In this document: positions 12,513 through 33,121 of the stretch, one piece after another
How the letters are laid out: every line of letters begins with the position of its first letter
How positions within the stretch are numbered: position 1 is the first letter of the stretch
Origin: an uncultured Bacteroidota bacterium
GTDB taxonomy: Bacteria > Bacteroidota > Bacteroidia > Chitinophagales > Chitinophagaceae
Assembly (NCBI GenBank): GCA_903929425.1
Contig: CAIYUO010000087.1
Coordinates: forward strand, 1-33,121
Length of the DNA stretch: 33,121 nt
Direction: 5' to 3'
Made by a program: the position numbers and the translations under genes
The notes under the pieces: model-generated
Seen by the model: only the letters and a program-made list of their open reading frames with translations
What the model was told of the DNA's origin: nothing
Database searches by the model: none

Positions 12513-12537
12513 TTCATTGCCAATTAAACAAGCCATA

Positions 12538-13143
12538 ATGGAAGTAAAAGTATTAGTAGCTGAGGATCATAGCATTGTGAAAATGGGTTTAACTGCTATT
12601 TTGAATAAATTATCAGTTCATACCGTTGGGGATGTTAGTACTTGCGGTGATTTAATGAATGAACTAGCTATAAATGAATATACTCATTTGATATTGGATA
12701 TTATATTGCCTGATGGGAATACCTTGGAATATATCGAGACCATAAATGAAAAATACCCTGATATGTCCATCCTGGTTCATTCCATGCAACCAATTGAGGT
12801 TTATGGTAAAATATCAAATAAGTTTAAAATCCATTCTTACTTACATAAAGGTGCTTCGGAAAGTGAGATCAATTATCATTTAGAGTTATTTATTAAGAAT
12901 CAGCCGCTTAGTATCAAGAAAAAAAATGAGGATACAGGTAATCCTTTTTCTACATTGGCAGTTAGGGAATTGGAAATACTTCACTATTTATTGAACGGCT
13001 ATAGAACCAAAGAAATTGCTAATTTATTGGGATTGAAAATGAATACGGTTTCTACTATTAAATCAAATATATTTGACAAAGTAAAAGCGGACTCATTTAC
13101 GCACCTATTACAGTTGGCACATGTACATCAAATTAGTTACTAA
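12538..13143 (+). CDS. NarL/LuxR-type two-component response regulator
   Basis: A 201-residue DNA-binding response regulator. The receiver domain shows the acidic pair Glu9-Asp10, the phospho-acceptor Asp54 in LILDIILPDG, the conserved Ser in ILVHS and the Lys in YLHKGAS. The C-terminal LuxR-type helix-turn-helix runs from about residue 138 (LAVRELEILHYLLNGYRTKE, then IANLLGLKMNTVSTIKSNI). I use ATG at 12538, which gives the canonical MEVKVLVAEDHS start, rather than TTG at 12517, which would overlap the predicted promoter. Its last 23 bases overlap the start of the sensor kinase gene, so the two are surely co-expressed partners. The palindromes upstream of this gene and of the giant gene are candidate binding sites, by inference only. 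Confidence 0.92.
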   Translation: MEVKVLVAEDHSIVKMGLTAILNKLSVHTVGDVSTCGDLMNELAINEYTHLILDIILPDGNTLEYIETINEKYPDMSILVHSMQPIEVYGKISNKFKIHSYLHKGASESEINYHLELFIKNQPLSIKKKNEDTGNPFSTLAVRELEILHYLLNGYRTKEIANLLGLKMNTVSTIKSNIFDKVKADSFTHLLQLAHVHQISY

Positions 13144-16301: not shown

Positions 16302-19300
16302 ATGATTAAGTATTGTGTGCGAATTTGTTTCAGTTTAAGAACTGTTTTAATATTAGGTTTATTCCAATTTATAAGTGTTTTTGCGAATGCGCAAACACCA
16401 TGTACTGCTCCTTATAATCCAACCCCCGCATCTAGTTGGGGAATGGTACAAAAATTTCAATCTAATACTGTTATTTGGAATGGAGGAACACCTACAGCTG
16501 CAGATTTAAATGGAGACAATATATCAGAAATTTTAGCACCTGCTAATGATTATTCAGGTTACTATGTTTACAAAGGGGATGGAACAAATAAAACTTCAGC
16601 AACTAAGGATTTTGTTATTACGACTTCTAGTGTAAGATCGGTACAACCAGCTATTGCGAATATTATTGGTAATGCATCTTCAGCACCTGAAGTTGTTATG
16701 GTTAACTCCGCAGGGTTTCTTTATATTTTTGCTAGTACTGGGGGTACAGAAACTAATTTTTTATTCAAATCTACAACCGCTTCTCAATACAATACAGATG
16801 TAACTCCATATATAGTTGATATTGATGAGGACGGTTCTGCTGAAATAGTTTTAGGTAGCGATGTGTTTGGAATTGTAGGAAATGCTTTGGTAAAAAGAGT
16901 AGCAGGACCAGCATTAGGTTATGTAGGAGCAACTGCAGGAAGTACAGGAACGCCGATTGATGTGATTGTTGCTGATATTATTTCAACCAACCCTGGTAAA
17001 GAATTAATTTATGGTTCAAGAGTATATGGCGTTAATTTATCTACTGGTGTTACTAACATTTTAAAAGATTTAAGTACCATTGTTGGAACAAGTATAATTG
17101 CGACAAATGACAATGGCCCCACTGCTATTGCTGATATGAATGGGGATGGGAAATTAGATATCGTATATAATGGTTCAACGTTTGTTGTTATGTGGGATCC
17201 AAATGGAACGACTGCAGCAAATACTCTTTTGTTTAGAAGAATACCTCCAAGTTTCAATTATGGTACTAGAGGGTTGCCTTTAATTGCCAATGTATACAAT
17301 GATAAAACTACAGGAGGCAAATCAACTGATTTGCCAGAAGCAGTGATTATCAATTCAGTTAGTGGATCCGCTGGTATTGTTACTGCCTATAATTTAAATT
17401 ACAATTCGACAACAGGAACTGCGACTCAGCATATATGGTCTTTAGGAACAAACGACATGTCCGGTTGTACAGGTATTACAGCATTTGACTTTGATGGCAA
17501 TGGTATTAGAGAAATTGTATATCGTGATCAATCTACTTTAAGAATTATAAATGGAAATTTAGCCACACCAGTCAACTATGCAACTGCTGCAGTTTCTTCT
17601 TCAACATGGGGTGAGTATCCAATTGTGGCTGATTTAAATAATGATGGTCAAGCCGAAATAGCTGTTACTGGAAATACCATGTTGCAAGTATTTGGTAGTG
17701 ATCCAGCTACATTTCCATGGAGAGCTGCTCCTAATTATTGGAACCAACGTAACTATCGTATTGTAAACATTAATAGTGACTTAACGGTACCGGCTACTGA
17801 AATTAATGCAGCAAGTTCGGTTGCTTATAATAATAATGAAGCACAGTTACAATTAGCTGATGCAGTTGGGAATGGCGTGCCTAGTGGTTACACTTATTCA
17901 CCTGATGCATCTATTACAATCAATAACATTGTTGGAACTTGTCCTAACATGATAGTTTCCGCAACCATTAGCAATACAGGATCTTATTTATTGCCTGCTG
18001 GAACTTATGTTGCTTTGTATGATGCAAATCCTACAACAGGTGCTGCTAATTTAATTGGGACTTATCAAACAATTGCAACAATAGCTGCTGGTGGCTCAAT
18101 GACAGTAAGCATGACTGCCAATTTAGTTGGGGCTTCTTCGCTTATTCATGCAGTAGTAAATGATAGAGGTACAACTACAAGACCATTTAATTTAAGCACT
18201 TGGACCACTAACACAGGTTTGAGTGAGTGTAGTTATACAAATAATATAGATTCTAAAACATTTACTTGTACCGATACGGATAGCGATGGAGTTTCTGATT
18301 ATGTTGATATTGACGATGATAATGATGGGGTACTGGATGAGGTTGAAAATGCATGGTGTAAACCTTTGTTCGCTAACTCTATTTTGCCAGTTGGTAAAAC
18401 ATATGGCGTCACTGCAGCATCATTTGGAAGTTATATGCCAGCCGTTACTGCTGGATTAGATGCAACCACATGTATGAGTCCGGGACAAATTACTACTTTA
18501 ACTTATGAGTTTGGTAAAACAGTCAATAATCCTATCATTGGTTTTTATGGAGTTGATTTTGCTAAAGAAGAGTGGTTTGATTTAAATGACAATCCTGTTC
18601 AATTACGTATTTTAGATGCTAGTGGACCTACAGTTGTATCAAATAACATTTTAACATTATCAACAAGTCCAGTTGCTGGAGCAAATACTGCATCCACTTC
18701 AGCGATGGGAAGGATACAAGTATACGGCAATGTAACTGGATTAAAAGTGAAACATACCTGGTTATTGACTGCAAGTAATTGTGATAATCATGGTTTTTCA
18801 TTTCTTGAACCATTAGACTGTATTGGAGGGCCTAATCCTGACATAGATAACGACGGTATTATTAATAGTTTAGATTTAGACTCTGATGGTGATGGATGTC
18901 CGGATGCTAGGGAAGCAGCCGTTACTGGAACCTTGAATTCGGGGGTAGTAAAAAATGGACTAAATGGTGCTGTTACTATTACTAACACATTACCTAATGC
19001 AATTGCTGCAGGGTCTTATGGTACTAATGGTTTTGCAAACAGTTTAGAAACAGCTGTTGACAATGGTATTGCCAACTATGTTAACACCTATGTTTATGCA
19101 ACTATGCGTGCATACGCTGCTTGTGCTGATGCAGACAATGATAACATAAATGATTTACAAGATATAGACGATGATAATGATGGTGTAAAAGATATAGATG
19201 AGTTATCTTGTATTTCTCCATTAAATGCAATTGCGCCATCAGCTACAGGAGCATTAACTATTTTTTCAGATAATAATACTGGAAACTTTATAAAGTTAAC

Positions 19301-22300
19301 TGGAACAATTACTAAAGTAGCAACAACACTTTACAGTAAAGACATTGATGTATTACAATTAGCCGCCACCAGTTCTGGATCTGTAACATTGAATAATGCC
19401 TATCAGCTTTTAAAGTTGACGGTTGCTGATTTGGATCAAAGTGAATCAGTAACCCTAAAGGTATATGATCTTCAAAATAACCTTATCCCTTTTAATGCTA
19501 GTAATATTTTAGATAAGGGGACTTATGTAAATCCAACTTATCCAACTGGTTCATCTATTGTCTTAACGGCAGGAGGTACTGCAACTTATAATGGTGCTAC
19601 AAATAGTGCTCCCAATATTTTGTTGGGGATTCCAAATAATGCTAAGCGAATAGAATTTTATAAAACTGCAGGTGCTAACAATACTTGGATTGGTTTATTG
19701 GCTGGTTGTAATGATTGGGATTTAGATAATGATGGAATTCCAAATCGCTTGGACCTTGATTCCGATAGTGATGGTTGTAGTGATGCTTTAGAATCAGGCG
19801 CTACGAATATTACCACTGCGAACTATGCTTTTTCAGGAACGATGGGTGCAAACGGTTTAGACAACAGTTTGGAAACAGTTGCAGATAATGGAATAATAAA
19901 TTATACATCAACATATATTGTATACTCCGTTGATAATTTAATTAATGCTTGTCTTGATACTGACGGTGATGGACTTAGAAATATATTTGATATTGATGAT
20001 GATAATGACGGTGTATTAGACACAACTGAACAATATTGTAGCACTATTGGAGCATTAGCAGACCTTTATGGACCTACTTATTGGAAATCTATTTCTTGGA
20101 TTGGTGGAGCTTATTTAGCACAATATTCTTATGCTACTCCTGACATTTATATCGATGGTGTTTTAAATAATGGAGTTGAAGTATTTAGACCTGGTACAGT
20201 TGACAATCCGATAGATGGCGATGATTTTACAGCAACACCTATTATTTATACTTTGGTAACTCAAAATCCGCTGCATGCAGATGGTTTCTCTATCGTGAAT
20301 GATTATGGAGCCGCAGGGGATAATATTTTAAAAGCCGACATAAAATTATATACTGGTTCAGTAGCAAATCCTACTTTGATGGGAATAGAAACGATTGATA
20401 ATATGCAAGACGTTTCCTCTACTATCCGTTATCCATTTACCAAAGGCTATAATAATATCACCTCCATCAAAATACTTGTATATAAAACACTGCCAGCAGG
20501 TACGCAAGCTGCTAATGGTATGCAAATGGGGGAACTAGGACTTTATTCAAATGCCGGAACTTTTTGCGCTGATATAGATACGGATAACGATGGAACACCT
20601 AACCGTTTAGACCTTGATTCAGATGGGGATGGTTGTAGTGATGCTTTAGAATCTGGAGCCACAACTATTACAACAGCTAATTATGCATTTACAGGAACAA
20701 TGGGTACCAATGGTTTGGATAATAGCTTAGAAACAGTTGCTGATAATGGAGTGATTAATTATGTGTCTTCCTATCCATTTGCGATTGCAGGTAATTACGC
20801 TGCTTGTAATGATTCGGATGGAGACGGCGTTAATGATGTTGCAGACATTGATGATGATAACGATGGAATTTTAGATGCAGTAGAATCTCCTGCTTGTTTC
20901 TTTAAAGAGTATGAGTGGAATACTGCGGACAAGTCTAGCTATGTAAAGGTTACATCAGAATTAACCACAACAAATACGTTTTCATCTCAGTTATTAACTG
21001 ATAATAATACAACAACTTCCACAACTTTTTCAACTGCAACAGCCCAGTCTCAAATTGGTAAGGCTATTTTTACAGTCAACTTTAATGCACCTGTAAAATT
21101 AGATGCTTGGTATATATTAAAAACGAGTGCAACGCAAATTTTTGCTACTACTGCAAGTAGTTTAATGGTGCAAGGATCAAATAATAATTCCAGTTGGACA
21201 AATTTATTATCATCGCCAATTGCTTCTCCATCGAATGCAACAAATACGACTGCGAATGGTAGTGTTGACTTAGTTAACTCCAATAAATTCACCATAAGTG
21301 CTAATGCGGGCTATTATAAATATTACCGAATTTTTGGAGTTGGAGCTACAGCTGCGAATATATTAGGAGGATCAGCCGCTGATTTTTATTTTGATTTTAA
21401 TACAAATAGTTACAATGCATCGCAATATCCTAAGCCAACATGTGTAAGTGATACTGATGGTGACGGCATTCGTAATCATTTGGATTTAGATTCAGATGGT
21501 GATGGTTGTCCTGACGCAAAAGAGGCTAGTATAAAAGGTGCTTTATTATCTGGAACAATAAGAAATGGAACACCTGCAAATTTAATTACAACTGCAAATG
21601 TGGCTAGTGCTGTTGTATCTGGTACATATGGGGCAAATGGTTTTGCAGACGCTTTAGAAACTTCGTCAGAGTCGGGCATTTATTCTGGAACCTATACATA
21701 TGAGTATGTAATTTCTAATAAATTTAATGCTTGTTTAGATTCTGATAATGATGGATTGAATGATGTATTTGATATTGATGATGACAATGATGGCATTTTA
21801 GATTTGCAAGAACAAGTATCATGTGTGTCTTACGGACTGAATTTAGATAATATATATTTTACGGGTACTTCTGTAACCAATAAAACAAGTAATTCTCTAA
21901 CTACCAATAATAATGGCTGGACCACATCTTATTCTTCAGAGAATTTTACACTTCCTTTATCGCTCAAATTTAATCGTTTAAAAACAGAAGGAACAGTAAT
22001 GTTTGGTTTAATCCCTTCCGCTATATCTCAAACACCAGCGAATTACAATGATCTTGGTTATAAATTTAATTTAGCAGCTACACAAGCTTATGGTTATTTT
22101 AATGGGGGTGTTTGGAGCTTTGCACATGGTGCAATAAATGGGGGCGAAGAATACAGCATTGATATATCTGCTACTGGATATGTTACGGTGAAAATTAATG
22201 GAATACAAAAACAAGCATACCAAGGTGTTAACTCAAGCTATAAATTAGCTGTATCGGCAGGTTCAGTAGCATCCGAACTTTCAAATATTCGTTTTACAAA

Positions 22301-25300
22301 TAATACCTACCTAGAAAAATCATTCTGTTCTGATCGTGATACAGATGGGGATGGTATTCCTAACCGTTTGGATTTAGATTCTGATGGAGATGAATGTAGT
22401 GATGCATTTGAAGGAGGAACCACTACGAATCGTACTACCAATTTTGCACATCCTGCACCTTATGGAAACAATGGTTTTGCGAATGCATTAGAAACGGTTG
22501 CTGATAATGGAACGTATAGTGGAACGTATACTTTTTTAAATGTCATAGATAGAAATGCAAAAGCTTGCTTGGATTCAGATAGTGATGGCGTGAGCGATGT
22601 TTACGATCTTGATGATGATAATGATGGTGTTTTAGATAGTGAAGAGTGTAATGCACCTTTTTTTGACAACTGGGTTGATTTAGCAAGCTTTAAATCTAAA
22701 TTAATGAGTTCTGCATTTCACGGAACCCTATTTAGAAGTGCTAAAGGTAATTATTATGTGGCAGGTAGTTTTGCAAAACCCGATGGAACCGATCAGCCAA
22801 TACCTACTTTAGTTACTCCAGCGAATGGATATAACTATACTGGAGAAATTATTGATATCGCTGGTGTAGGTTCAAGTAGTAGTTATGCAATTGCGACTAC
22901 AAAAGGTATTTGGGTTTGGGGTTATTTAAATGACAATTTTATTTTACCTGGTACAACAACTACGGTTGGTGGCTCTCCTTTTCAAAAAGTAATGTTACCA
23001 GCTGAAATTGATCCTAAAAACATTAAATCAATCAGCGCTTCAACAAATAATTTCTTAATCCTATTACAGGATGGTACTGTCTATGCATATGGTATGGCGA
23101 ATGCATCTTTAAATGGTGCAGGTTTATCAACAGCTTCTAAGGGATTTACCCAAGTTCTAGTAGGGCCTAATACACCATTAACGAATATATCGCAAGTTGA
23201 GGCCACTTCTGGTGGTACCATTGCCGCAGATATCACTAACAATAAACTATATACATGGGGTACTAATGTTTATTTAGGTAATGCTACAGCATTTACAACT
23301 AAAAATTATGCTACCGAAATGACTAATCCATTGCCAAATGGTATTAGGATCGCGATGATTGATGGAACTTATAGTACTAGTATGACCTATTTGTTGCTAG
23401 GGACAGATAAAAAAGTGTATGCATTAGGTTCAGGTTCAGAAGGTATTTTAGGACAGAATAGTACCTCTAATTCCACATCTTGGTTGAACGTAAAAGGTAA
23501 AGATGGGGTAGGCGTTTTAGAAAATGTTGAATATTTAAGTGCTCAAAATTCAACAGATCAATATACTTCTGCTTCCGTTATTTTAAATACGGGTAAGCCA
23601 TTGTCATGGGGATCGGCTGGAGCACAAAATATGATTGGGTTAGGAAACGTGAGTGCGTTGGTTCCTGGTACACCTAATGGAATTGTAGATACAGATGTTA
23701 TTTATGTTATTGAAAATGGAGGACACTTAACTCCAATGTTAAATGATGATGGTGAGATTGGTAATGTGGGTCACAATGTAGCTGGTGCTTTTGCAGATGG
23801 AACATCATCAAATAGAGCAGTATATGTATTTAATCCCTTTGAAAGAGGTACGGATTATTCTGATAATATCGCAGCTTCCTGTAATCCAGATATTGATGGG
23901 GATGGCATTCCGAATCGTATGGATTTGGATACAGATGGAGATGGATGTAGTGATGCTAAAGAATCCAATGTAAAAGGAACCTTGATCACTGGTAATCTAG
24001 TTAACAAAGTAAATGGAACTTTAACTTCTATTAATGTTAACAATGCCATCGCACAGGGGACTTATGGGGCTAATGGTTTTGCAAATGGGATTGAAACTGC
24101 TAGTGAGTCAGGAATTTATACAGGCACTTATTTTTATAAATATGCAACGAATGCGGCAGTAAACGGATGTACCGATTCGGATGGGGATGGTGTTTCAAAT
24201 ATTTTTGATTTAGATGATGATAATGATGGAATATTAGATTTAAATGAACAAATAAATTGTATTCCAGTTGGTATTGATTTAGATAAATTAACTTTTACAG
24301 GATCTTCGATTATTGCAAATACAAGTAATTCTTTAACGACGGATGGGGGAGATGTTTGGAAATCATCTTATTCTTTTCAAAATTTTAAACTTCCCATTTC
24401 TTTAAAGTTTAAGCATGCTTCTACGACGGGTTATGAAATGTTTGGCTTATTGCCAGTAGCAAATGCGCAAACGCCAGCCAGTTGGAATGACGCAGGATAT
24501 AAGTTTTATCCTCAAACAACCAATACCTATGGTTATTTTACTTCTGCCTGGGACTTTGGGCCAATAGCTATTTTGCCTACTGATGTATTAAGTGTGGACA
24601 TTTCTAGTACAGGATATGTCACTGCTGCTATAAATGGCGTTGTTCAAAAAGCATATCAAGGAGTAGTCTCTGATTATAAATTAGCCATAAGCTCCTATAG
24701 AGCTTCGTCCTTAACAGATATCATTTTAACGGATGCAAAAAATTTAGCAGAATACGTTTGTACTAATTTAGATAGCGATTTAGATGGTATTCCGAATCAC
24801 TTGGATTTGGATTCAGATGGTGATGGTTGTCCAGATGCAAAAGAAGCAGGTGTAAAAGGAACGCTTACTACTGGGGATGTTGTTAATAAAGTTGGCAGTA
24901 CAAATACTACAACGGCGAATGTTGCCAATGCTATTGCTGCAGGGCCTTATGGTGACAATGGTTTTGCAAATTCAATCGAGACAAATACTGAATCGGGATT
25001 GTATTCAGGTACTTATACCTATAGTTATGTAGTTGATGCAACAGTTAGTGCATGTTTAGATACTGACAATGATGGTGTTACTGATATTAAGGATTTAGAT
25101 GATGATAATGATGGTATATTGGATTTAGTGGAATGTCCATTAAATAATATTTTAGTTAATGGTGATTTTGTTGGTAATACAACAGGATGGACAGCGAATG
25201 CAAATTGGGTTTGGAAAACAGGAGATTTTATTTGGAACTCAGCTGACAATGTTTCGAATAATTCAATTTCACAAACTTTTGGAAAACCTGTTATTAATGC

Positions 25301-28300
25301 AGAATCTTCATCCGAAGATATTGCTTTTGATTTTGGTACAAATGGAACTGGATGGGCCATTTCAAGTTCTGGCATAGCTACGATGGATGTAGCCATAAAT
25401 AATATTGTTTATGCTACTTTAACAAATCCAAATGGAGGAACTACTGCTAGTATTGTTGCGAAGAATGGAGCATCAGTGAATTTGTCAAGTGTAAATATCA
25501 TCACTACCAATGTACCTTCTTCTAGAATTATAATCACAGTACCAAAAAGTATTTTTACTAATTCAAATACAATTGATTTTAATTTCTCTGCAACTACCGA
25601 TGATATTGGAATAGATAATGTATTTATTGGAACACAAATAACAACATGTGATACAGATGGAGATGGAGTTGTAAATAGTAAAGATTTAGATTCAGACGGA
25701 GACGGCTGTCCTGATTCTAGAGAAGCTGGCGTTTATGCACCATTAACTAGTGGAACTGTAATTAACAAAGTAGGTACTGTGACAAGTACAACAACAGTAC
25801 CAAGTGCAGTTGTTTCAGGAACATTTGGCATGAATGGTTTTGTTAATAGTGTTGAAACTGCTTCTGAATCTGGTTTGTATTCTGGTACCTATACCTATGG
25901 TTATGCTACTGATGCAAGTGTGAGTGCATGTGTGGATACAGATGGTGATGGAGTTACAGATGTTAACGATATAGATGATGACAATGATGGGGTATTGGAC
26001 ACTTTGGAGCAAGAAATATGTAAAATTAATTTTGATTTCTCAGCAATAGGGACTACTGCACAGTCTATTAGCTTGGGTGGGGGATTAACGGTAAGCCAAA
26101 TTAGTTCTGTAGCAACTGTTGCTGGCTCAGATAACAATAGTAATCTAGCACTGTCTGTTGGTAATACTGCAACCTTGACTTTTAATAGGCCTGTTTCATT
26201 GACGATCAAGCATGCAAACAATTCAGCAGTTAACTTTGATAATGGCGATCGCTGGAATATTAGTTCAACTGGAGCAACATTTAAATTAAGTGATCCGAAT
26301 TTAGATTTAACCTTAAATGCTAATCCAAATGGAGTTATCGATTTTACACCAAAAGCGACTTCAAATAATGATGCAGAACCATGGGTAATTACTACTTCTA
26401 AATTAAGTACTATCACATTTAATTTGGCGGTTGGTAATACTTTTTCTGATTTAAAAATCGAATTAGCTTGTGGAAGTGATATTGATACAGATAGTGATGG
26501 TATACCTAATCGTTTAGATTTAGATTCAGATGGCGATGGTTGTACTGATGCAATTGAGGCAGGCAGTTCAACTTCTTCAACAAGTACATCAGTTTATCCA
26601 ACAGGAACGGATAATAATGCAAATGGGTTACTTAATGTTTATGAAAGTTCAACCAATGGTACAATTAATTATTCATCCTACTATACTGAATATGCTTTAA
26701 CAAATACTTTAAACGCATGTACTGATTCGGATAATGATGGGGTTAAAGATATTTTAGATTTAGATGATGACAATGATGGTATTCTTGACAACATTGAATC
26801 TCCAAATTGCTTTACAACAATTGCTGATTTTGCAAAACCAATTGCAGTAAGTTCAGAATTGTTGCCATACACAACTTATATTATTGGAAATTCGATTGAT
26901 GCTAGTTCAACTTCAGCTTCTGCATTTGACCCAAGCCAAAACTGGGTAGGTAAAGAAATTTTTAAATTTACAGCCAAGACTAATATTGCTATCACAGGCA
27001 TGTCTTTTAATTTGGTGAACTGGGCACTCTCAAATCTTTCCACCAATACATTTAAATTACAAGGTTCTATTGATAATGTAGTATGGGCTGATTTATCTAC
27101 AGCAGTTGCCTCAACGGCTACTACTGGCGTATTTACAATTACAAATAGCTTAGCTACTTCGTCTAAGTTTAAATATTATAGATTACTAGGTGTAGCAGGT
27201 ACTAGTTATTATGGAGGAGTGCTTAATGCTTCCTTCAATGTAGTTTCCACTACTTTACCAATGCCAATTGCTGGATGTACCAATGATACAGATGGCGATG
27301 GCAAATTGAATCATTTAGATTTAGATTCAGATGGAGATAGCTGTCCTGACGCTATTGAAGAAGGTACTGCAGCTTTTGGGACATCAGCTTACAGTAGTAC
27401 AAGTTTTTTAAATTCGACCACTACAGGGGCGAATGGATTTGCGAATAATTTAGAAACAGCGACTGAAAGTGGCATTTACAGTGGCACGTATAAATATATA
27501 AGAGCAGTAATATCAACTCTAAATGCTTGTTTAGATACCGATGGAGATGGTGTTCCAAACTTAGATGATATTGATGATGATAATGATGGAATAGTAGACC
27601 TATCAGAAATGTCTTGTTCGCCTATTGTAACCAATGCAACATGTTTAGCAGCCCCATTGGCTTATGGTATAACGAGTCACTGTTCTGGTTGGAAAGGTTT
27701 TGATTATGATCCATCACCAACAGTAAATATCATTTCGAATTTCGATTACATGGGCCTTACTGGTGGAATTCCTTATTTCGATTTTCAAGGTTCTACTGGA
27801 AGTAGTGCTACCACTCAACTATGTGGTAAAATATATAAAGACTTTGTTACCATTCCAGGTGTGACTTATACTTTCTCTGTTAATTTGATGAGTAGTTTTG
27901 TAGATGCAGAAGGCATTAAGCCGAATTTAAAAGGGGTTGATGCATCAACAGGTTTTGTATTAGGAACTACTTATTTAAATGGTACTGGTGTTCGCTCTGT
28001 AACATTTACTGCCATTGGTACAACTACTACTATTACATTAGGATTAGATACCCGCACATCTTTAACTTATGCAGGAGGAAATCAATTTTGGCACGAAGTT
28101 GGCTTTACTATGAATGGAGCAACTTATCAAAACTGTACTATTTTAGATACGGATGGTGATGGTACACCAAACACATTGGATTTAGATTCCGATGGTGATG
28201 GTTGTGCTGATGCTGTAGAAGCAAAAACAACTTATCATCCTGGTGCAGGATTAACTGGGTCTGCAAAATTAACTTCAAGTACTATACCAGGAACGGTGGG

Positions 28301-31300
28301 TGCAAATGGTTTTGTAAATGCATTAGAGACTGTTGCAGAAAGTGGAATATACAGTGGCACTTATACTTATTCAAGAGCTACTGATCCATCATTGAAAGCA
28401 TGTTTAGATTCTGATTTTGATGGAGTACCAGATATTGATGATTTGGATGATGATAATGATGGTATTTTAGATACCATTGAATGTGTTAACAATCAAATAT
28501 TTTTAGAAAATTTTGAAACTGCAACTGTTAATCCATATAGATCGGCTGCGGTTTATCAACCTGGTGTGTCCTTAAATGGCCAGTTGGCTTCTGGTGGTGC
28601 AAATGGAACATCTAAATCTTTATTTCATAATACTGGCACTGGAACTTATGTAGTTGGAGATATTTTTTGGGGAACTAGAACTCCAATTACTGTAAATCAA
28701 AATAGTACTTACGAGATAAGTTACTATATGAAAGACAAAAACGGGGTGTCTTTGCCAAGTGTAGAAAATTGGGTTAATAATGTGAAAATTGGTAATGCAA
28801 CTACAATTACCACCTCTTGGGTAAAATATACCATTACTTGGAATAGTGGATTAAATTCAACGCTAGACCTTTCACTTAAAAACTTAAATATTTCTGGAGT
28901 AGGGAACGATTTCTATATAGATGAAATAGCTGTTATAGCCATTTGTGTTGATGGAGATGCAGACAATGACGGAATACCAAATCGACTGGATCTTGACTCA
29001 GACGGCGATGGCTGTTCTGATGCGAATGAAGCATACGCAACAACCACTGCACAAGGAACAGATGGTAACCAAACTTATGGAACCAATCCAATTACCGTAG
29101 ATGCAACTGGTAAAATTACCAGTGCGAGTTACACTAGTACAAGTAATAATTATTTAACTGTTGGATCTTCTAGTACCATAACTACGCAGCCAACGGATCA
29201 ATCTGTAACACCAGGTGCTAATGCAGTCTTCTCTGCAAATGTAACTGCAGGAACAGGTTCTACCACTTATCAATGGCAGCTTAGTACGGATGGTGGAAGT
29301 ACTTGGAATAATGTTACTAATTCTGTGACTTATGCAGGTGCAGGTACAACTACTTTAACGGTGAGCAATGTGACCATTGCCATGAAAGGGTATCGATATA
29401 AATTATTAATAACGCAATCCAATTATGTTTGTGGAAGTATTAGTTCCAATGTTGCTAAATTAAATATGGACAACACGCCTGTGGTGGTGGATGATGCAAA
29501 AACAGGAACAGAAGATACGCCAGTAACTGGGAATGTTTTAACCAATGATAAAGGTTCTGGTTCACCAGCTGCTGCGTTAACGGTTTCATCTTATACCATT
29601 GGTGGCGTGAGCTATCCTGCAGGAACGAGCGCAACAATTGCAGGAGTGGGAAGTTTTGTTATGAATGCAAATGGTACTTACACATTTACGCCAACAGCAA
29701 ATTATAATGGTACAGTTCCAGCTATTGATTATACAGCCACAGATGCAAATGGTGGTTCAGATATTGGCACTTTAAATATTACTATCACAGCCGTAAATGA
29801 TGCGCCAATTGCGGTAGATGATAATAAATCAACGCCTCAAAATACTGCCGTTTCAGGAAATGTATTAACAGATGGTACAGACGATAGTGATGTGGATGGA
29901 AATACTTTAACTATAGCTCAATTTGCCATTGCAGGGGTTGCTTATAATCCTGGAGACAATGTAAATATTCCTGGTGTTGGTTCCTTTACTTTAAGTGCTA
30001 ATGGAAATTACACTTTTACACCATTGAATGGATATTATGGAGCAGTTCCGACTGTTGAATATATAATAAGTGATGGCAATGGTGGGTCTGATGCTGGAAA
30101 TTTAAATATTACAGTTACTGATGTGAATGATGCTCCATTGGCAACTGATGATATTAAAACCATATTGCAAGGTTCAACAGCAACAGGTAATTTACTAACC
30201 AATGATGCCGATGTTGATGCAGGTGCAACATTAACCATTACACAATTTGTTTTCACCATAAATGGAACTACTTATACCAACACAGCGGGTTCAAATATTG
30301 TAACCATGCCTGGTATCGGTACGATTCAAATTTTAACTAATGGTGCTTATAGTTTTGTTCCAACAGGTACTTATACTGGAACTGTTCCGCCAATAACTTA
30401 TACTTTAAGTGACGGAAGTTTAACGGACAATGCTTTGTTAGATATTTTTGTATCACCAGTTAATGCGAACCCAGTTGCAAATAATGATGCACAAACAACG
30501 AATGAAGAAGTACCAGCCACAGGAAATGTTTTAACAAATGATACCGATTCGGATGCAAATACACTCGTTGTAACTGAATATTCCTTTACAGTTGCTGGAA
30601 TTACTTATACTTATCCAGCTGGATCAACGAATTGTATTTACAATGTGGGAACCATTTTGATGAATGCAAATGGTACATACACATTTACACCTTATGCTAA
30701 TTATAACGGAAACGTGCCGGCTATTACTTATGCAATTAGTGATGCACATGGTGGTACCGCAACATCAACTTTAGCAATCACCGTCACTCCAGTAAACGAT
30801 TCGCCAATTGCGGTGAATGATGATAATAAAACAACACCTGAGGATACACCGGTAACTGTGAATGTATTAACAAACGATAGCGATATTGATGGTAATACTT
30901 TATCCGTAACACAATTTACAATTGCAGGTATAGTAGGTACGTTTACAAACTCTGCAGTGATTCCTGGAAAAGGAACATTAACTGCTAATTCAAATGGAAA
31001 TTTCACATTTACACCTTTTGCAAATTTCAATGGAGTTGTACCAACCATCACTTACACAGTGACTGATGGAACTTCAACTAATACTGCGTTTGTAAATATT
31101 ACAGTTACCCCTGTGAACGATGCGCCAGCAGTAGCAAATGAAACAACAACTACACTTGAAAATGTTGCGAAAACTGGGAATGTATTAACAAACGATACGG
31201 ACATTGAAAGCAATACACTTTCTGTTACAACAGTCACCATTAATGGGGTTACTTATGCAGCAGGAACAATAATTGATATTGCAGGAGTTGGAACTTTAAT

Positions 31301-33121
31301 TGTAAATGCAAATGGTAGTTATATATTCACGCCATTACAAAATTATTTTGGAACAGTACCTGTAATAACCTATGCTGTTTCCGATGGTAATGGAGGAGTG
31401 ACTAATGGTACGCTTACAATTGCAGTAATTCCTGTGAATGATCCTCCAATTGTAGTAAATGAATCAGTGAATATTCAGGAGGATGGAATTGCTTCAGGTA
31501 ATTTATTATCCAATGATTCTGATCAAGAAAATAATCCTTTAACCATAACGCAATTTACCATAGCAGGTATTAGTGGTACATTCACTTCAACAGCAACCAT
31601 TCCAGGAGTAGGTACTATAACGATTAATGCAAATGGTACTTATACATTTACACCAACTGCAAATTATAATGGTATTGTTCCTGTTATTGAATATACAGTG
31701 AGCGATGGTCAAGGTGCAACAACTAATGGTACTTTAACCATTGTCGTTTCTCCTGTGAATGATGCGCCATTAGTAGTAAACGAAACATTATCTGCTCCTG
31801 TTAATACGGCAATTACAAATAATGTATTGACCAATGATAGAGATGTTGAAGCTGCAACTTTAACTATTACTAATATTACCATTGCAGGTGTTAGTTATCC
31901 AGTTGGTCAACTAACAACAATCACCGGAGTTGGAACTATTTTAATGAATGCTGATGGTAGTTTTGTATTTACTCCTGCCAATAATTATGTGGGTTCAGTA
32001 CCTGCAATTACGTACACCGTTTCTGATGGAACAACAACAAGTACAGGTACTTTAAGTTTAACCATTACACCTATAGACACCGATGGTGATGGAATTCCAG
32101 ATGCCACAGAAAAAGGAAATGGAATAAACCCAATTGATACGGATAATGATGGCACACCTGACTGGTTAGATTTAGATAGTGACAATGATGGCATACCAGA
32201 TAGTATCGAGGATGCGGTATGTATAGGTTTCTTACCATGTACACCAACCGATTCTGATAGTGATGGCACACCTGATTATCGCGATACCGATAGCGATGGT
32301 GATGGAATTTTAGATGCCACAGAAGATGCAGGTTGTACAGGTGCTGCACCATGTACGCCAACAGATACCGATGGCGATGGCACACCAAACTATTTAGATT
32401 TAGATAGTGATGGTGATGGAATTACAGATGCGATTGAAAAAGGACCTAATGCTTCACCATTGGATACTGATAATGATGGCACGCCTGATTATTTGGATAC
32501 GGATAGTGATGGTGATGGTATTTCAGATAATACTGAAAAAGGTGGAAGTTCCACTCCTATGGATACTGATGGCGATGGCATTCCTAATTATCGTGATGTA
32601 GATAGTGATGGTGATGGCATTCCTGATAATGTTGAAAGAGGCTCGGGTACGAATCCTTTAGATACCGATGGAGATGGTACACCTGATTATTTAGATACCG
32701 ATAGTGATGGGGATGGTATTTTAGACAATGCCGAAGATAATGGTTGTACAGGAACTGCGCCATGTACGCCAACAGATACCGATGGTGATGGTACACCAGA
32801 TTATCGTGATTTAGATTCAGATAATGATGGTATTCCAGATAGTGTTGAAGGTGGTGCAGATACAGATGGCGATGGTATTCCTAATTTTAGAGATTTAGAT
32901 AGTGATGGGGATGGAATTTTAGATGTGATTGAAAAAGGAACTAATGGTGCAACACCTTTAGATACCGATGGTGATGGTACACCAAACTTTTTAGATACCG
33001 ATAGTGATGGCGATGGCATTCCTGATAGTATTGAAAAGGGAACAGCATCAACGCCTAAAGATTCAGATGGTGATGGAGTACCTGATTATTTAGATACCGA
33101 TAGTGATGGTGATGGCATTCC
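16302..33121 (+). CDS. Giant modular calcium-binding surface protein, 3'-truncated
   Basis: An open frame of 5606 complete codons with no stop in the window. An in-frame TAG directly precedes the ATG, so the start is fixed. Signal peptide to ANAQ (residues 28-31). Residues about 45-480: FG-GAP/VCBS-like propeller with ADLNGDNISEI, VDIDEDGSAEIV, ADMNGDGKLDIV, FDFDGNGIREIV and ADLNNDGQAEIAV, followed by YWNQRNYRIVNINSDLTVP. Residues about 527-646: CARDB-like domain. Residues about 655-4287: twelve calcium-cassette/passenger modules. Then an Ig-like domain (about 4288-4390), eight tandem-95 repeats (about 4390-5257) and a TSP3-type DxDxDG array from about 5258 to the edge. Such proteins in Bacteroidota are usually T9SS cargo acting as adhesins, and a sorting domain is expected beyond the window. 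The closest functional parallel is the giant gliding adhesin SprB, but the repeats here are not obviously SprB-like. It probably belongs to the neighbouring two-component system's regulon (inference). Confidence 0.93.
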   Translation, partial: MIKYCVRICFSLRTVLILGLFQFISVFANAQTPCTAPYNPTPASSWGMVQKFQSNTVIWNGGTPTAADLNGDNISEILAPANDYSGYYVYKGDGTNKTSATKDFVITTSSVRSVQPAIANIIGNASSAPEVVMVNSAGFLYIFASTGGTETNFLFKSTTASQYNTDVTPYIVDIDEDGSAEIVLGSDVFGIVGNALVKRVAGPALGYVGATAGSTGTPIDVIVADIISTNPGKELIYGSRVYGVNLSTGVTNILKDLSTIVGTSIIATNDNGPTAIADMNGDGKLDIVYNGSTFVVMWDPNGTTAANTLLFRRIPPSFNYGTRGLPLIANVYNDKTTGGKSTDLPEAVIINSVSGSAGIVTAYNLNYNSTTGTATQHIWSLGTNDMSGCTGITAFDFDGNGIREIVYRDQSTLRIINGNLATPVNYATAAVSSSTWGEYPIVADLNNDGQAEIAVTGNTMLQVFGSDPATFPWRAAPNYWNQRNYRIVNINSDLTVPATEINAASSVAYNNNEAQLQLADAVGNGVPSGYTYSPDASITINNIVGTCPNMIVSATISNTGSYLLPAGTYVALYDANPTTGAANLIGTYQTIATIAAGGSMTVSMTANLVGASSLIHAVVNDRGTTTRPFNLSTWTTNTGLSECSYTNNIDSKTFTCTDTDSDGVSDYVDIDDDNDGVLDEVENAWCKPLFANSILPVGKTYGVTAASFGSYMPAVTAGLDATTCMSPGQITTLTYEFGKTVNNPIIGFYGVDFAKEEWFDLNDNPVQLRILDASGPTVVSNNILTLSTSPVAGANTASTSAMGRIQVYGNVTGLKVKHTWLLTASNCDNHGFSFLEPLDCIGGPNPDIDNDGIINSLDLDSDGDGCPDAREAAVTGTLNSGVVKNGLNGAVTITNTLPNAIAAGSYGTNGFANSLETAVDNGIANYVNTYVYATMRAYAACADADNDNINDLQDIDDDNDGVKDIDELSCISPLNAIAPSATGALTIFSDNNTGNFIKLTGTITKVATTLYSKDIDVLQLAATSSGSVTLNNAYQLLKLTVADLDQSESVTLKVYDLQNNLIPFNASNILDKGTYVNPTYPTGSSIVLTAGGTATYNGATNSAPNILLGIPNNAKRIEFYKTAGANNTWIGLLAGCNDWDLDNDGIPNRLDLDSDSDGCSDALESGATNITTANYAFSGTMGANGLDNSLETVADNGIINYTSTYIVYSVDNLINACLDTDGDGLRNIFDIDDDNDGVLDTTEQYCSTIGALADLYGPTYWKSISWIGGAYLAQYSYATPDIYIDGVLNNGVEVFRPGTVDNPIDGDDFTATPIIYTLVTQNPLHADGFSIVNDYGAAGDNILKADIKLYTGSVANPTLMGIETIDNMQDVSSTIRYPFTKGYNNITSIKILVYKTLPAGTQAANGMQMGELGLYSNAGTFCADIDTDNDGTPNRLDLDSDGDGCSDALESGATTITTANYAFTGTMGTNGLDNSLETVADNGVINYVSSYPFAIAGNYAACNDSDGDGVNDVADIDDDNDGILDAVESPACFFKEYEWNTADKSSYVKVTSELTTTNTFSSQLLTDNNTTTSTTFSTATAQSQIGKAIFTVNFNAPVKLDAWYILKTSATQIFATTASSLMVQGSNNNSSWTNLLSSPIASPSNATNTTANGSVDLVNSNKFTISANAGYYKYYRIFGVGATAANILGGSAADFYFDFNTNSYNASQYPKPTCVSDTDGDGIRNHLDLDSDGDGCPDAKEASIKGALLSGTIRNGTPANLITTANVASAVVSGTYGANGFADALETSSESGIYSGTYTYEYVISNKFNACLDSDNDGLNDVFDIDDDNDGILDLQEQVSCVSYGLNLDNIYFTGTSVTNKTSNSLTTNNNGWTTSYSSENFTLPLSLKFNRLKTEGTVMFGLIPSAISQTPANYNDLGYKFNLAATQAYGYFNGGVWSFAHGAINGGEEYSIDISATGYVTVKINGIQKQAYQGVNSSYKLAVSAGSVASELSNIRFTNNTYLEKSFCSDRDTDGDGIPNRLDLDSDGDECSDAFEGGTTTNRTTNFAHPAPYGNNGFANALETVADNGTYSGTYTFLNVIDRNAKACLDSDSDGVSDVYDLDDDNDGVLDSEECNAPFFDNWVDLASFKSKLMSSAFHGTLFRSAKGNYYVAGSFAKPDGTDQPIPTLVTPANGYNYTGEIIDIAGVGSSSSYAIATTKGIWVWGYLNDNFILPGTTTTVGGSPFQKVMLPAEIDPKNIKSISASTNNFLILLQDGTVYAYGMANASLNGAGLSTASKGFTQVLVGPNTPLTNISQVEATSGGTIAADITNNKLYTWGTNVYLGNATAFTTKNYATEMTNPLPNGIRIAMIDGTYSTSMTYLLLGTDKKVYALGSGSEGILGQNSTSNSTSWLNVKGKDGVGVLENVEYLSAQNSTDQYTSASVILNTGKPLSWGSAGAQNMIGLGNVSALVPGTPNGIVDTDVIYVIENGGHLTPMLNDDGEIGNVGHNVAGAFADGTSSNRAVYVFNPFERGTDYSDNIAASCNPDIDGDGIPNRMDLDTDGDGCSDAKESNVKGTLITGNLVNKVNGTLTSINVNNAIAQGTYGANGFANGIETASESGIYTGTYFYKYATNAAVNGCTDSDGDGVSNIFDLDDDNDGILDLNEQINCIPVGIDLDKLTFTGSSIIANTSNSLTTDGGDVWKSSYSFQNFKLPISLKFKHASTTGYEMFGLLPVANAQTPASWNDAGYKFYPQTTNTYGYFTSAWDFGPIAILPTDVLSVDISSTGYVTAAINGVVQKAYQGVVSDYKLAISSYRASSLTDIILTDAKNLAEYVCTNLDSDLDGIPNHLDLDSDGDGCPDAKEAGVKGTLTTGDVVNKVGSTNTTTANVANAIAAGPYGDNGFANSIETNTESGLYSGTYTYSYVVDATVSACLDTDNDGVTDIKDLDDDNDGILDLVECPLNNILVNGDFVGNTTGWTANANWVWKTGDFIWNSADNVSNNSISQTFGKPVINAESSSEDIAFDFGTNGTGWAISSSGIATMDVAINNIVYATLTNPNGGTTASIVAKNGASVNLSSVNIITTNVPSSRIIITVPKSIFTNSNTIDFNFSATTDDIGIDNVFIGTQITTCDTDGDGVVNSKDLDSDGDGCPDSREAGVYAPLTSGTVINKVGTVTSTTTVPSAVVSGTFGMNGFVNSVETASESGLYSGTYTYGYATDASVSACVDTDGDGVTDVNDIDDDNDGVLDTLEQEICKINFDFSAIGTTAQSISLGGGLTVSQISSVATVAGSDNNSNLALSVGNTATLTFNRPVSLTIKHANNSAVNFDNGDRWNISSTGATFKLSDPNLDLTLNANPNGVIDFTPKATSNNDAEPWVITTSKLSTITFNLAVGNTFSDLKIELACGSDIDTDSDGIPNRLDLDSDGDGCTDAIEAGSSTSSTSTSVYPTGTDNNANGLLNVYESSTNGTINYSSYYTEYALTNTLNACTDSDNDGVKDILDLDDDNDGILDNIESPNCFTTIADFAKPIAVSSELLPYTTYIIGNSIDASSTSASAFDPSQNWVGKEIFKFTAKTNIAITGMSFNLVNWALSNLSTNTFKLQGSIDNVVWADLSTAVASTATTGVFTITNSLATSSKFKYYRLLGVAGTSYYGGVLNASFNVVSTTLPMPIAGCTNDTDGDGKLNHLDLDSDGDSCPDAIEEGTAAFGTSAYSSTSFLNSTTTGANGFANNLETATESGIYSGTYKYIRAVISTLNACLDTDGDGVPNLDDIDDDNDGIVDLSEMSCSPIVTNATCLAAPLAYGITSHCSGWKGFDYDPSPTVNIISNFDYMGLTGGIPYFDFQGSTGSSATTQLCGKIYKDFVTIPGVTYTFSVNLMSSFVDAEGIKPNLKGVDASTGFVLGTTYLNGTGVRSVTFTAIGTTTTITLGLDTRTSLTYAGGNQFWHEVGFTMNGATYQNCTILDTDGDGTPNTLDLDSDGDGCADAVEAKTTYHPGAGLTGSAKLTSSTIPGTVGANGFVNALETVAESGIYSGTYTYSRATDPSLKACLDSDFDGVPDIDDLDDDNDGILDTIECVNNQIFLENFETATVNPYRSAAVYQPGVSLNGQLASGGANGTSKSLFHNTGTGTYVVGDIFWGTRTPITVNQNSTYEISYYMKDKNGVSLPSVENWVNNVKIGNATTITTSWVKYTITWNSGLNSTLDLSLKNLNISGVGNDFYIDEIAVIAICVDGDADNDGIPNRLDLDSDGDGCSDANEAYATTTAQGTDGNQTYGTNPITVDATGKITSASYTSTSNNYLTVGSSSTITTQPTDQSVTPGANAVFSANVTAGTGSTTYQWQLSTDGGSTWNNVTNSVTYAGAGTTTLTVSNVTIAMKGYRYKLLITQSNYVCGSISSNVAKLNMDNTPVVVDDAKTGTEDTPVTGNVLTNDKGSGSPAAALTVSSYTIGGVSYPAGTSATIAGVGSFVMNANGTYTFTPTANYNGTVPAIDYTATDANGGSDIGTLNITITAVNDAPIAVDDNKSTPQNTAVSGNVLTDGTDDSDVDGNTLTIAQFAIAGVAYNPGDNVNIPGVGSFTLSANGNYTFTPLNGYYGAVPTVEYIISDGNGGSDAGNLNITVTDVNDAPLATDDIKTILQGSTATGNLLTNDADVDAGATLTITQFVFTINGTTYTNTAGSNIVTMPGIGTIQILTNGAYSFVPTGTYTGTVPPITYTLSDGSLTDNALLDIFVSPVNANPVANNDAQTTNEEVPATGNVLTNDTDSDANTLVVTEYSFTVAGITYTYPAGSTNCIYNVGTILMNANGTYTFTPYANYNGNVPAITYAISDAHGGTATSTLAITVTPVNDSPIAVNDDNKTTPEDTPVTVNVLTNDSDIDGNTLSVTQFTIAGIVGTFTNSAVIPGKGTLTANSNGNFTFTPFANFNGVVPTITYTVTDGTSTNTAFVNITVTPVNDAPAVANETTTTLENVAKTGNVLTNDTDIESNTLSVTTVTINGVTYAAGTIIDIAGVGTLIVNANGSYIFTPLQNYFGTVPVITYAVSDGNGGVTNGTLTIAVIPVNDPPIVVNESVNIQEDGIASGNLLSNDSDQENNPLTITQFTIAGISGTFTSTATIPGVGTITINANGTYTFTPTANYNGIVPVIEYTVSDGQGATTNGTLTIVVSPVNDAPLVVNETLSAPVNTAITNNVLTNDRDVEAATLTITNITIAGVSYPVGQLTTITGVGTILMNADGSFVFTPANNYVGSVPAITYTVSDGTTTSTGTLSLTITPIDTDGDGIPDATEKGNGINPIDTDNDGTPDWLDLDSDNDGIPDSIEDAVCIGFLPCTPTDSDSDGTPDYRDTDSDGDGILDATEDAGCTGAAPCTPTDTDGDGTPNYLDLDSDGDGITDAIEKGPNASPLDTDNDGTPDYLDTDSDGDGISDNTEKGGSSTPMDTDGDGIPNYRDVDSDGDGIPDNVERGSGTNPLDTDGDGTPDYLDTDSDGDGILDNAEDNGCTGTAPCTPTDTDGDGTPDYRDLDSDNDGIPDSVEGGADTDGDGIPNFRDLDSDGDGILDVIEKGTNGATPLDTDGDGTPNFLDTDSDGDGIPDSIEKGTASTPKDSDGDGVPDYLDTDSDGDGI
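20890..21440 (+). other. Passenger 4: discoidin-like domain, sibling of passenger 10
   Basis: This region of the giant protein has a discoidin/F5-8C-like feel: VQGSNNNSSWTNLLSS, then YYKYYRIFGVGAT. The passenger at about 26800-27280 repeats the same features in the same order (LQGSIDNVVWADLSTA, then KFKYYRLLGVAGT). The two are probably diverged copies of one domain. A carbohydrate-binding role is possible but not shown. Confidence 0.55.
21825..22330 (+). other. Passenger 5, duplicated as passenger 7
   Basis: This domain and the one at about 24250-24765 share TSNSLTT, LPLSLKFNR against LPISLKFKH, MFGLIPSAISQTPANYND against MFGLLPVANAQTPASWND, YGYF, and ISATGYVTVKINGIQKQAYQG against ISSTGYVTAAINGVVQKAYQG. 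They are clear paralogues about 2.4 kb apart with the RCC1-bearing module between them. I do not recognise the fold by name. Confidence 0.75.
22660..23850 (+). other. Passenger 6: RCC1-like beta-propeller inserted in the module array
   Basis: About 400 residues of RCC1-type blades: SSYAIATTKGIWVWGYL, FLILLQDGTVYAYGMAN, NNKLYTWGTNVYLGN, YLLLGTDKKVYALGSGSEG, then GKPLSWGSAGAQNMIGLGN. The pattern 'DG.VY.WG....G.LG' repeats at 50-70 residue spacing. It accounts for the single double-length module (1602 bases). RCC1-like propellers occur in bacterial surface proteins, probably as protein- or ligand-binding scaffolds. Confidence 0.75.
29163..29470 (+). other. Ig-like domain joining module array and tandem-95 repeats
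   Basis: About 100 residues with TITTQPTDQSVTPGANAVFS, YQWQLSTDGGSTWNNV, and YKLLITQSNYVCGSISSNVA, the usual bacterial Ig-like (I-set type) pattern of a Trp core and a closing strand. It replaces the usual linker after the twelfth DGC cassette and therefore marks the end of the module array. Confidence 0.7.
29470..32073 (+). repeat. Eight tandem-95 / cadherin-like repeats
   Basis: Eight copies of a repeat of about 100-112 residues, each with 'GNVLTNDxD...LTIT.F.I.G', then 'G.I..NANGTYTFTP..NYNG.VP.ITYT.SDG', and ending in PVNDAP or a variant. Copies end near 29808, 30138, 30474, 30804, 31128, 31446, 31767 and 32073. This is the Big_9/Cadherin_5-like tandem-95 family found in giant bacterial adhesins. 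The third copy ends with VNANP and the eighth stops at TITPI before the calcium array. The Asp-rich turns at VLTNDxD could bind calcium. Confidence 0.85.
32076..33121 (+). repeat. TSP3-type DxDxDG calcium-binding array, running off the window
   Basis: A run of about 11 units of 27-42 residues. Each pairs 'DTDGDGTPDYLD' with 'TDSDGDGI.D..EKG'. I count one single and ten paired cassettes before the edge. Three units carry a short Cys loop ending in PCTPT (VCIGFLPCTPT, GCTGAAPCTPT, GCTGTAPCTPT). The DNA is itself strongly repeated: the 20 bases TTAGATACCGATAGTGATGG recur at about 32691, 32991 and 33090. The array probably forms a rigid, calcium-stiffened stalk near the cell-surface end. Confidence 0.9.

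Follow-up and report, generated by a model that had tools for sequence, protein, structure and literature searches.

The contig CAIYUO010000087.1 of an uncultured Bacteroidota bacterium (family Chitinophagaceae; GenBank assembly GCA_903929425.1) carries a giant gene whose product is probably a surface rack that alternates predicted calcium-binding cassettes with exchangeable domains, some of them likely to bind glycans. The window analysed here is the whole contig (33,121 nucleotides; G000:C87 in our genome set), one of 110 contigs in a genome of 2.23 Mb that is about 90% complete. The gene is a single open frame on the forward (+) strand, as are the features given below with coordinates for this gene and for the two regulatory genes before it. 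It spans 16302..33119 (5606 amino acids), is cut by the contig end and continues past position 33119. A preliminary description had placed the element at 18270..29160; the repeat units do lie inside these bounds, but the whole protein is longer, reaching from 16302 to beyond the contig end.

Twelve D(I/L)DDDNDG cassettes (termed A) recur in a single reading frame from 18306 to 28440, and the distances between them (855, 828, 855, 927, 834, 1602, 885, 876, 789, 810 and 873 bases) agree with the spacing reported earlier, 789-927 bases and once 1602. Each A cassette is followed by a domain, here called a passenger, and then by a DLDSDGDGC-type cassette (termed B), in the strict ABAB alternation that had been described. 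Passengers in the window are 158-188 amino acids long, except for that in slot 6 (414 amino acids), and the one long unit results from the RCC1-like repeats of this passenger. Between consecutive passengers lies a frame made of a B cassette, a linker and the next A cassette. When aligned, the 11 frames of the window have 29 invariant columns and a mean identity of 60%, far beyond chance. The linker, which had been called constant, is conserved but not constant, and is the least conserved part of the frame: for unlike passenger families in different genomes, identity averages 65-66% in A cassettes, 77-78% in B cassettes, 42-43% in linkers and 25% in passengers, as calculated from one in five of the same-genus pairs. 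At the nucleotide level, the A cassettes of the window have a mean identity of 70% and the B cassettes 73%, with exact runs of up to 23 and 24 bases. The B cassette of slot 8 is preceded by K.

A frame-profile search of 147 genomes of the genus (G numbers) matched 15, the window's own included, at E 1e-12 or better, and a search with a single frame matched 10 of 60 (again with its own) at 1e-3. The gene pieces compared here number 15, including the window, and come from 14 of the 15 matched genomes (G013, a second G153 contig and a weak G005 match were left out); 12 of them are cut by an end of the DNA. Alternation of A and B cassettes persists through the rack in all 15, the exceptions to the A pattern being one G034 cassette that it missed (DLDNDNDG) and three stray matches outside the rack in G009 and G114. 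Residues 840-2115 served as the query of a protein search, which scored the 1117 candidates sharing most words with the query at sizes of 0.55 to 1.75 times its own and found 267 giant proteins with E-values of 1e-10 or lower. The 120 of these matches that were listed (P numbers) come from Flavobacterium, Chryseobacterium, Aquirufa, Algoriphagus, Belliella, Daejeonella, Pedobacter and others. Adding the pieces from the genus gives a set of 135 proteins, with 1094 passengers and up to 19 units per protein; five of the 135 have no unit by the patterns and contribute nothing to the counts.

Passengers can differ at the same position of an otherwise conserved gene. The 15 same-genus pieces hold 28 passenger families (101 passengers) in differing orders, such as G D H A B L B I P A E Q in the window, M W A N A H A B L F in G120 and C D A J B in G145. 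Some runs of families (H A B L) are shared between pieces and others are not, and the fixed order that would speak against swapping was not seen. Different passengers in conserved frames, the counterpart to be expected from swapping, were found in slot 1, where the window has only 19 and 21% protein identity (32 and 34% DNA identity) to G145 and G166, respectively. On one side of this slot the last 100 residues of the N-terminal head are 78 and 74% identical, and on the other side identity is 76-80% in the B cassette and linker that follow; head residues 32-554 as a whole are 89% (G145) and 87% (G166) identical to the window, and the passengers of slot 2 are 66 and 65% identical. Compared with the window, P0001 (head 87% identical) has replaced passengers in slots 1 (17%), 8 (21%) and 12 (15%) and is without unit 3, all of its other passengers being 53-90% identical. 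P0003 (head 88%) has no units 1, 2 and 8; its passengers in slots 9 and 12 are unlike those of the window (25% each), and the others are 82-96% identical. P0046 and P0060 are 92-99% alike in six slots, after which one unit and the last passenger (20%) differ. Thus, the proposal that the protein is a display scaffold that gains, loses or swaps binding domains is supported in that replaced and missing passengers are seen, although gain and loss are indistinguishable in these comparisons and 'binding' comes from predicted folds.

The converse pattern, closely related passengers between linkers at background, is also present. In three examples hand-picked from the list of same-family pairs, passengers that are 76% (G034.5/G018.2), 72% (G000.7/G009.14) and 69% (G120.3/G145.3) identical have both linkers at background (46 and 36%, 44 and 46%, and 38 and 28%, respectively), and in a further pair (G144a.4/G144b.3) only one linker is at background. 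Beside passengers that are 35-50% identical, flanking frames are at background (58 and 56%). Exchange of whole units and exchange of passengers alone both appear to occur, and in conserved runs, such as those of G145/G166, linkers travel with their passengers.

Metagenome repeats that join different strains during assembly could mimic swaps, and the window and many of its relatives are indeed metagenome assemblies in which 12 of 15 gene pieces run off the DNA end. We regard an assembly artefact as extremely improbable. ABAB racks are also present in records not titled as metagenome-assembled genomes (Chryseobacterium defluvii and Aquirufa lenticrescens, among others), complete frames occur in G009 (a 193 kb contig) and in G110 and G161 (108 kb each), and G145 and G166 agree on slot 1. 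Moreover, two Flavobacterium ammonificans records with contigs of 2.3-2.4 Mb, likewise not titled as metagenome-assembled genomes, differ in several slots; identities of 92 and 95% in two aligned slots close to the end are the basis for assuming that their racks are the same gene. Slot variation is therefore not limited to draft metagenomes.

To estimate how often passengers change, we used 181 pairs (75 proteins), each sharing at least three similar passengers. These pairs provide 223 slots in which both linkers are at least 70% identical, and the passenger is kept (at least 60% identity) in 202, intermediate in 6 and unrelated (below 35%) in 15. Retention on this scale is what would be seen if the protein were a fixed multidomain adhesin, with old passengers inherited in order and diverging faster than the calcium cassettes. 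The pairs G145/G166 and P0013/P0019 (slots 3/1 to 9/7) fit such a history as well, since all compared slots are kept and frame and passenger divergence are similar. Nevertheless, a fixed adhesin does not explain why some passengers are unrelated (12-25% identity) although the linkers or flanks around them are 60-100% identical, why others are 69-76% identical next to linkers at background, or why units are missing in register. We consider it highly improbable and have rejected a fixed order on the basis of the variable family orders, the P0001 replacements, the 15 unrelated slots of 223 and slot 1 of G145/G166.

The last slot, which adjoins the stalk of the protein, differs most often in pair comparisons and is hypervariable. 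When both flanks are conserved and at least 600 amino acids of stalk lie behind the slot, the last passenger is unrelated in 20 of 29 comparisons, versus 9 of 176 for internal slots. The difference persists when each protein is used once and only the left flank is considered (7/13 for the last slot versus 4/43 for internal slots in these pairs; Fisher P 0.0015). If proteins cut at contig ends are included in a one-flank count, 25 of 39 last slots are unrelated, and the same rule gives 46 of 425 (left flank) and 74 of 415 (right flank) for internal slots. The first slot is quiet by comparison, being unrelated in 2 of 51 cases with a conserved right linker, against the 74 of 415 for internal slots. 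Certain clusters of passengers are found mostly at the end of the rack, as with cluster 12 (nine last, one internal) and cluster 24 (five last, none internal).

A feature missed in the preliminary description is that passengers carry cysteines at both ends. A cysteine lies within the first 8 and within the last 13 residues of 1021 of the 1094 passengers, whereas 0.05% would be expected from the frequency of inner cysteines; the next most enriched end residue, proline, reaches 4 times its expectation. In the same-genus set, 100 of 101 passengers have the end cysteines and 80 have exactly two cysteines, and the frames likewise contain exactly two in 94 of 95 cases, with both at the expected positions in 88 of 95. 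A cysteine precedes the A cassette in 979 of 996 instances. The B-cassette pattern itself demands a cysteine, hence that residue is selected for by our search, which is not the case for the passenger-end and pre-A cysteines. The pairing of positions suggests that one disulfide would close each passenger and another each linker. In each unit, a calcium-loaded A cassette would open the slot and a B cassette would close it, and the passenger-end cysteines would form a disulfide clamp, such that any domain with neighbouring ends would fit.

Most passengers of the window are unlike each other, as had been noted: the only clear pairwise paralogues are passengers 5 and 7 (51% identity) and passengers 4 and 10 (27%, E 6e-10). 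The first A cassette (18264..18347, by its motif) opens slot 1, which holds passenger 1 (18348..18839; family G, cluster 30), the passenger whose place is taken by another family in P0001, G145 and G166. Clustering assigns passenger 2 (19203..19718) to family D and cluster 9 and passenger 9 (26010..26483) to family P and cluster 17. Passenger 3 (20031..20576; family H, cluster 11) has no counterpart in P0001, and passenger 8 (25134..25649; family I, cluster 8), which groups with no other passenger of the window in the same-genus families, is replaced there by another family. Passenger 4 (20886..21449; family A, cluster 1) is F5/8 type C-like (PF00754, 24.4 bits, below the cut-off of 28.2), passengers 5 (21813..22337) and 7 (24249..24770) form family B and cluster 2, and passenger 6 (22647..23888; family L, cluster 10) carries its RCC1-like repeats above threshold (RCC1_2, 39.1 bits, cut-off 22). 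Passenger 10 (26799..27284) belongs with passenger 4 in family A and cluster 1. Passenger 11 (27609..28145) is a separate family, E, in the same-genus set and is found in cluster 1 of the large set (429 passengers) by single linkage only. The hypervariable last slot holds passenger 12 (28482..28955; family Q, cluster 23), which has a weak CBM_4_9 match, and is followed by the last B cassette (28956..29030, by its motif), after which there is no A cassette. According to the frame alignment, frames 1 to 11 occupy 18840..19202, 19719..20030, 20577..20885, 21450..21812, 22338..22646, 23889..24248, 24771..25133, 25650..26009, 26484..26798, 27285..27608 and 28146..28481. The 1094 passengers of the large set form 98 to 128 clusters depending on threshold (115 at one threshold, of which 59 are singletons), and these family counts are approximate because single-linkage clusters merge distant members at this scale. 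Within 147 genomes of the genus, passenger 2 has four matches and passenger 8 has three, all of which (4/4 and 3/3) reside inside rack genes.

Structure prediction with AlphaFold2, from alignments of 7-19 sequences, returned confident models for two passengers. That of passenger 10 is a discoidin-like jelly roll whose best Foldseek match is a family 32 carbohydrate-binding module (CBM32; 4lpl, E 2.8e-7), and a profile comparison matched it to the CBM32 chain 2w1q (E 0.0067), although alone it has no Pfam match. Passenger 7 is modelled as a concanavalin-like sandwich resembling SPRY, CBM66 and L-type lectin domains, and its fold thus also resembles SPRY protein-binding domains. From these models, passengers probably fold on their own and some of them probably bind glycans. 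The alternative raised earlier, that frame and passenger form one inseparable fold, is unlikely given these two confident domains, although the frame itself was modelled at low confidence. What such variety is selected for can be read in another way, namely that changing passengers allow escape from phages, predators or rival bacteria and do not serve new ligands. Rapid turnover of one slot would suit escape equally well. However, the two modelled passengers look carbohydrate-binding or lectin-type, even if one is also SPRY-like, and slots keep the size and end cysteines that suit working domains; we judge selection for escape to be unlikely.

How passengers are exchanged must be reconstructed from the products that are observed. 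If cassettes of different slots or of different strains recombined, one passenger would be replaced, added or removed while the frame is kept. The simplest reading is homologous recombination, whether with DNA from other strains or from one slot to another. A silent store of cassettes in the organism's own genome was also considered, but a search at E 1e-5 found no copies of the passengers elsewhere in that genome, which is about 90% complete. That no such store was seen bears on the further possibility of antigenic or phase variation in one lineage, in which slots recombine within the gene and no domains arrive from other cells. Paralogous passengers within one gene (passengers 5 and 7) would be natural products of that process, as would the cassettes with 70-73% nucleotide identity and exact runs of up to 23-24 bases and the presence of family E at 87% on two G144 contigs with unlike linkers. 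Variation confined to one lineage is nevertheless rather improbable, since in the three replaced slots that distinguish the window from P0001 both passengers come from clusters that occur once per gene, and several last-slot clusters are rare elsewhere. The family E passengers of G144, on contigs C23 and C160 (L053 and L052), have linkers that are 31 and 58% identical, and one might be a recent copy between slots.

Several observations weigh against the reading of the gene as a rack of exchangeable, calcium-braced binding domains. Exchange is only occasional, because most comparable slots (202/223) keep their passenger. The compared pairs share proteins and are thus phylogenetically non-independent, the slots were aligned by our own scoring, and most relatives are metagenome-derived. 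Frames beside passengers that are at least 65% identical are themselves more similar (74 and 70%) than the background of 57%, and in one pair (G009.4/G018.1, passenger 89%) the previous linker is 83% identical and only the next is at background (43%). Members of the two largest clusters are found in last slots as well (15 and 10 times), and in 73 of the 1094 passengers at least one end cysteine is missing. When 29 passengers were scanned singly, none reached a Pfam cut-off, and only passenger 6 passes one, in the scan of the protein. No match in the rack attains the cut-offs of the thrombospondin type 3 (TSP3) families PF02412 and PF18884, the best score being 16.4 bits (TSP3_bac, in the piece with slot 6; cut-off 25); the matches listed for the other two rack pieces include no TSP3 family, and the piece with the C-terminal array has one of 21.6 bits. 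We therefore call the frame only 'TSP3-like', in recognition of its DxDxDG motifs. Confidence in the predicted frame is low (pLDDT mostly under 50), and its calcium sites, its fold and the geometry of the clamp remain predictions. Finally, the C-terminus of the window's protein, its sorting signal and any shuttle gene lie off the contig, and the evidence for a surface route described below comes from two relatives.

These relatives, G009 and G110, end in a TIGR04131/CHU_C domain (41.6 and 45.6 bits, cut-off 35), which is a sorting domain of the type IX secretion system (T9SS). In each, the next gene encodes PorP_SprF (254.8 and 250.6 bits), and a further gene behind it matches TPR, PD40 and OmpA models and resembles PorE (NF052230 T9SS_PorE, 184.7 and 191.6 bits, below the cut-off of 600); this same gene scores slightly higher with NF053607 (CHU_0125_OmpA), likewise below its cut-off. 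According to the portions available of two papers, T9SS type B substrates have cognate PorP/SprF shuttles and PorE is proposed to be part of a cell-wall-anchored set (PMC12618676, PMC9143113). The protein is probably surface-anchored, because its relatives have a T9SS type B domain together with PorP/SprF and PorE-like genes. The adjacent PorP_SprF would be the cognate shuttle that carries the type B C-terminal domain out, and the PorE-like partner would tie the rack to the cell wall; the exported rack would thus be anchored, without the movement that serves gliding. The window has another type B-like pair at 5794-10911, where a protein with IgGFc_binding, PKD and CHU_C domains is followed by PorP/SprF; this pair is kept upstream in G034 (72 and 52% identity).

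The rack is flanked by a head and a stalk. At 16302..18263 lie the start of the protein, which has a signal-like peptide by eye, and an N-terminal head with FG-GAP repeats (FG-GAP_3, 62.6 bits, cut-off 26.9). In G034 (L043/L044), identity to the window is 77% over the first 31 residues, beyond which the head has no convincing similarity; to judge from sequence, the head may be exchanged as well. Behind the rack, a stalk with approximate ends (29178..32070) begins with an Ig-like match, below the Pfam cut-off, and continues with eight cadherin-like/tandem-95/CshA-type repeats, which exceed the curated cut-offs of NF012211 (tandem-95; 341.4 versus 90 bits) and TIGR04225 (CshA; 157.9 versus 60 bits). 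A match to NF045619 (adhes_GNV_Cterm) in the stalk piece, at 172.4, is slightly short of its cut-off of 180. This cadherin-like stalk would lift the rack off the surface. The remaining sequence is a TSP3-like DxDxDG array (32076..33119) that is cut by the contig end. The array is of low complexity, and contigs of several relatives likewise stop inside the giant gene.

The giant gene occupies one place across relatives. Upstream in the window are genes for a LuxR-type response regulator (12517..13143) and, immediately before the giant gene, a Reg_prop sensor kinase (13121..16135), and the same kinase (43-81% identity) and regulator are found in 10 of the 11 relatives with upstream DNA, the eleventh (G153) having a distant kinase/regulator pair (28%); 3 of the 14 pieces are without upstream DNA. 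RlmH and rhomboid genes further upstream are common to 5 of the 11. The LuxR-type regulator and Reg_prop kinase may control the giant gene. Some matches beyond the compared racks deserve mention. One rack protein (P0025) is filed under Daphnia sinensis and probably derives from a bacterium living with or contaminating the animal. Four giant proteins (P0111, P0112, P0115 and P0117) contain A-type cassettes in long series, and the patterns detect no B cassette in them; three of the four carry PF18962, two are named T9SS type A proteins, and they are perhaps racks without slots. Frame-like matches also occur in records titled Thiodiazotropha, Granulosicoccus, Lyngbya, Synechococcales and Hydrococcus (L072, L081, L082, L090 and L103), with E-values of 6e-14 to 3e-10 that were computed among candidates only.

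The rack is a new variant among large modular adhesins. Thrombospondins have one lectin domain with a TSP3 wire, whereas the rack has many different domains, each between cassettes. Cellulosome scaffoldins and dockerins use DxDxDG calcium motifs and form a modular carbohydrate-binding rack, but here the heads are built into one chain and are not docked. Likeness to CshA, tandem-95 and cadherin-like adhesins and to the BapA/Bap/LapF large-adhesin model is found in the stalk piece, and none of it in the rack. Rack pieces match the BamM model (NF053691) at 84.4 and 86.8 bits in 8 stretches each, around positions 227-312 of 376, presumably through calcium-type repeats and far below the cut-off of 315. 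Parallels are also seen in the repeats-in-toxin (RTX) adhesins, for example AhLap of Aeromonas hydrophila, which, in the portions available of PMC12077191, are giant calcium-dependent fibres that carry diverse binding domains with neighbouring ends, a companion frame and one carbohydrate-binding module. There are three such domains near one end, two of which emerge from Ig-like split domains, and secretion is by the type I route (PMC12077191). The rack differs in having up to 19 slots by the patterns, a TSP3-like frame that bears cysteines, T9SS type B signals in relatives and single-slot replacement. As regards the RTX ligand-binding domains that emerge from a split domain, the passengers of the rack lie between two cassettes and have end cysteines, and the frame model on which a comparison would depend has low confidence. 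Words beginning with 'swap' or 'recombination' occur 0 times in the main text of PMC12077191. No RTX nonapeptide model is among the Pfam and NCBIfam matches of the available part of the protein, which lacks the C-terminus, and two relatives have a T9SS C-terminus. SprB and other T9SS type B substrates, as far as portions of PMC9143113 and PMC12618676 describe them, are similarly very large and repetitive and resemble the two relatives that have TIGR04131 and an adjacent PorP_SprF. Unlike at SprB, a PorE-like gene (below the curated cut-off) follows, an arrangement that these papers tentatively link with cell-wall anchoring and not with movement of the SprB kind (PMC9143113, PMC12618676). A search restricted to the open-licence literature listed no paper on the architecture described here.

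The present analysis adds to the preliminary description the end cysteines, direct evidence that slots are replaced and that units are lost or gained, a last slot that changes fast, a type B route seen in relatives, and an estimate of how large the passenger pool is. Giant modular adhesins are common and their evolution is usually hidden by repeats, whereas here slots, frames and boundaries are directly readable, and the replacement of single domains in a conserved rack becomes countable. A tentative extension, to which we assign somewhat less than an even chance, is that Bacteroidota share a mobile pool of more than 100 kinds of lectin-like plug-in domains that exist only in the cysteine-closed slots of T9SS racks, with the cassettes serving as recombination joints and the stalk-side slot as a dedicated fast-changing position that retargets the cell. 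Giant and mostly unexplained genes of many Bacteroidota become a catalogue of more than 1000 ready-cut domains, some predicted to bind carbohydrates, together with a prediction of which slot changes the target of the cell fastest. If the rules suggested for the cysteine clamp and the cassettes are true, the rack would also represent a naturally occurring design for presenting unrelated domains on a single fibre.

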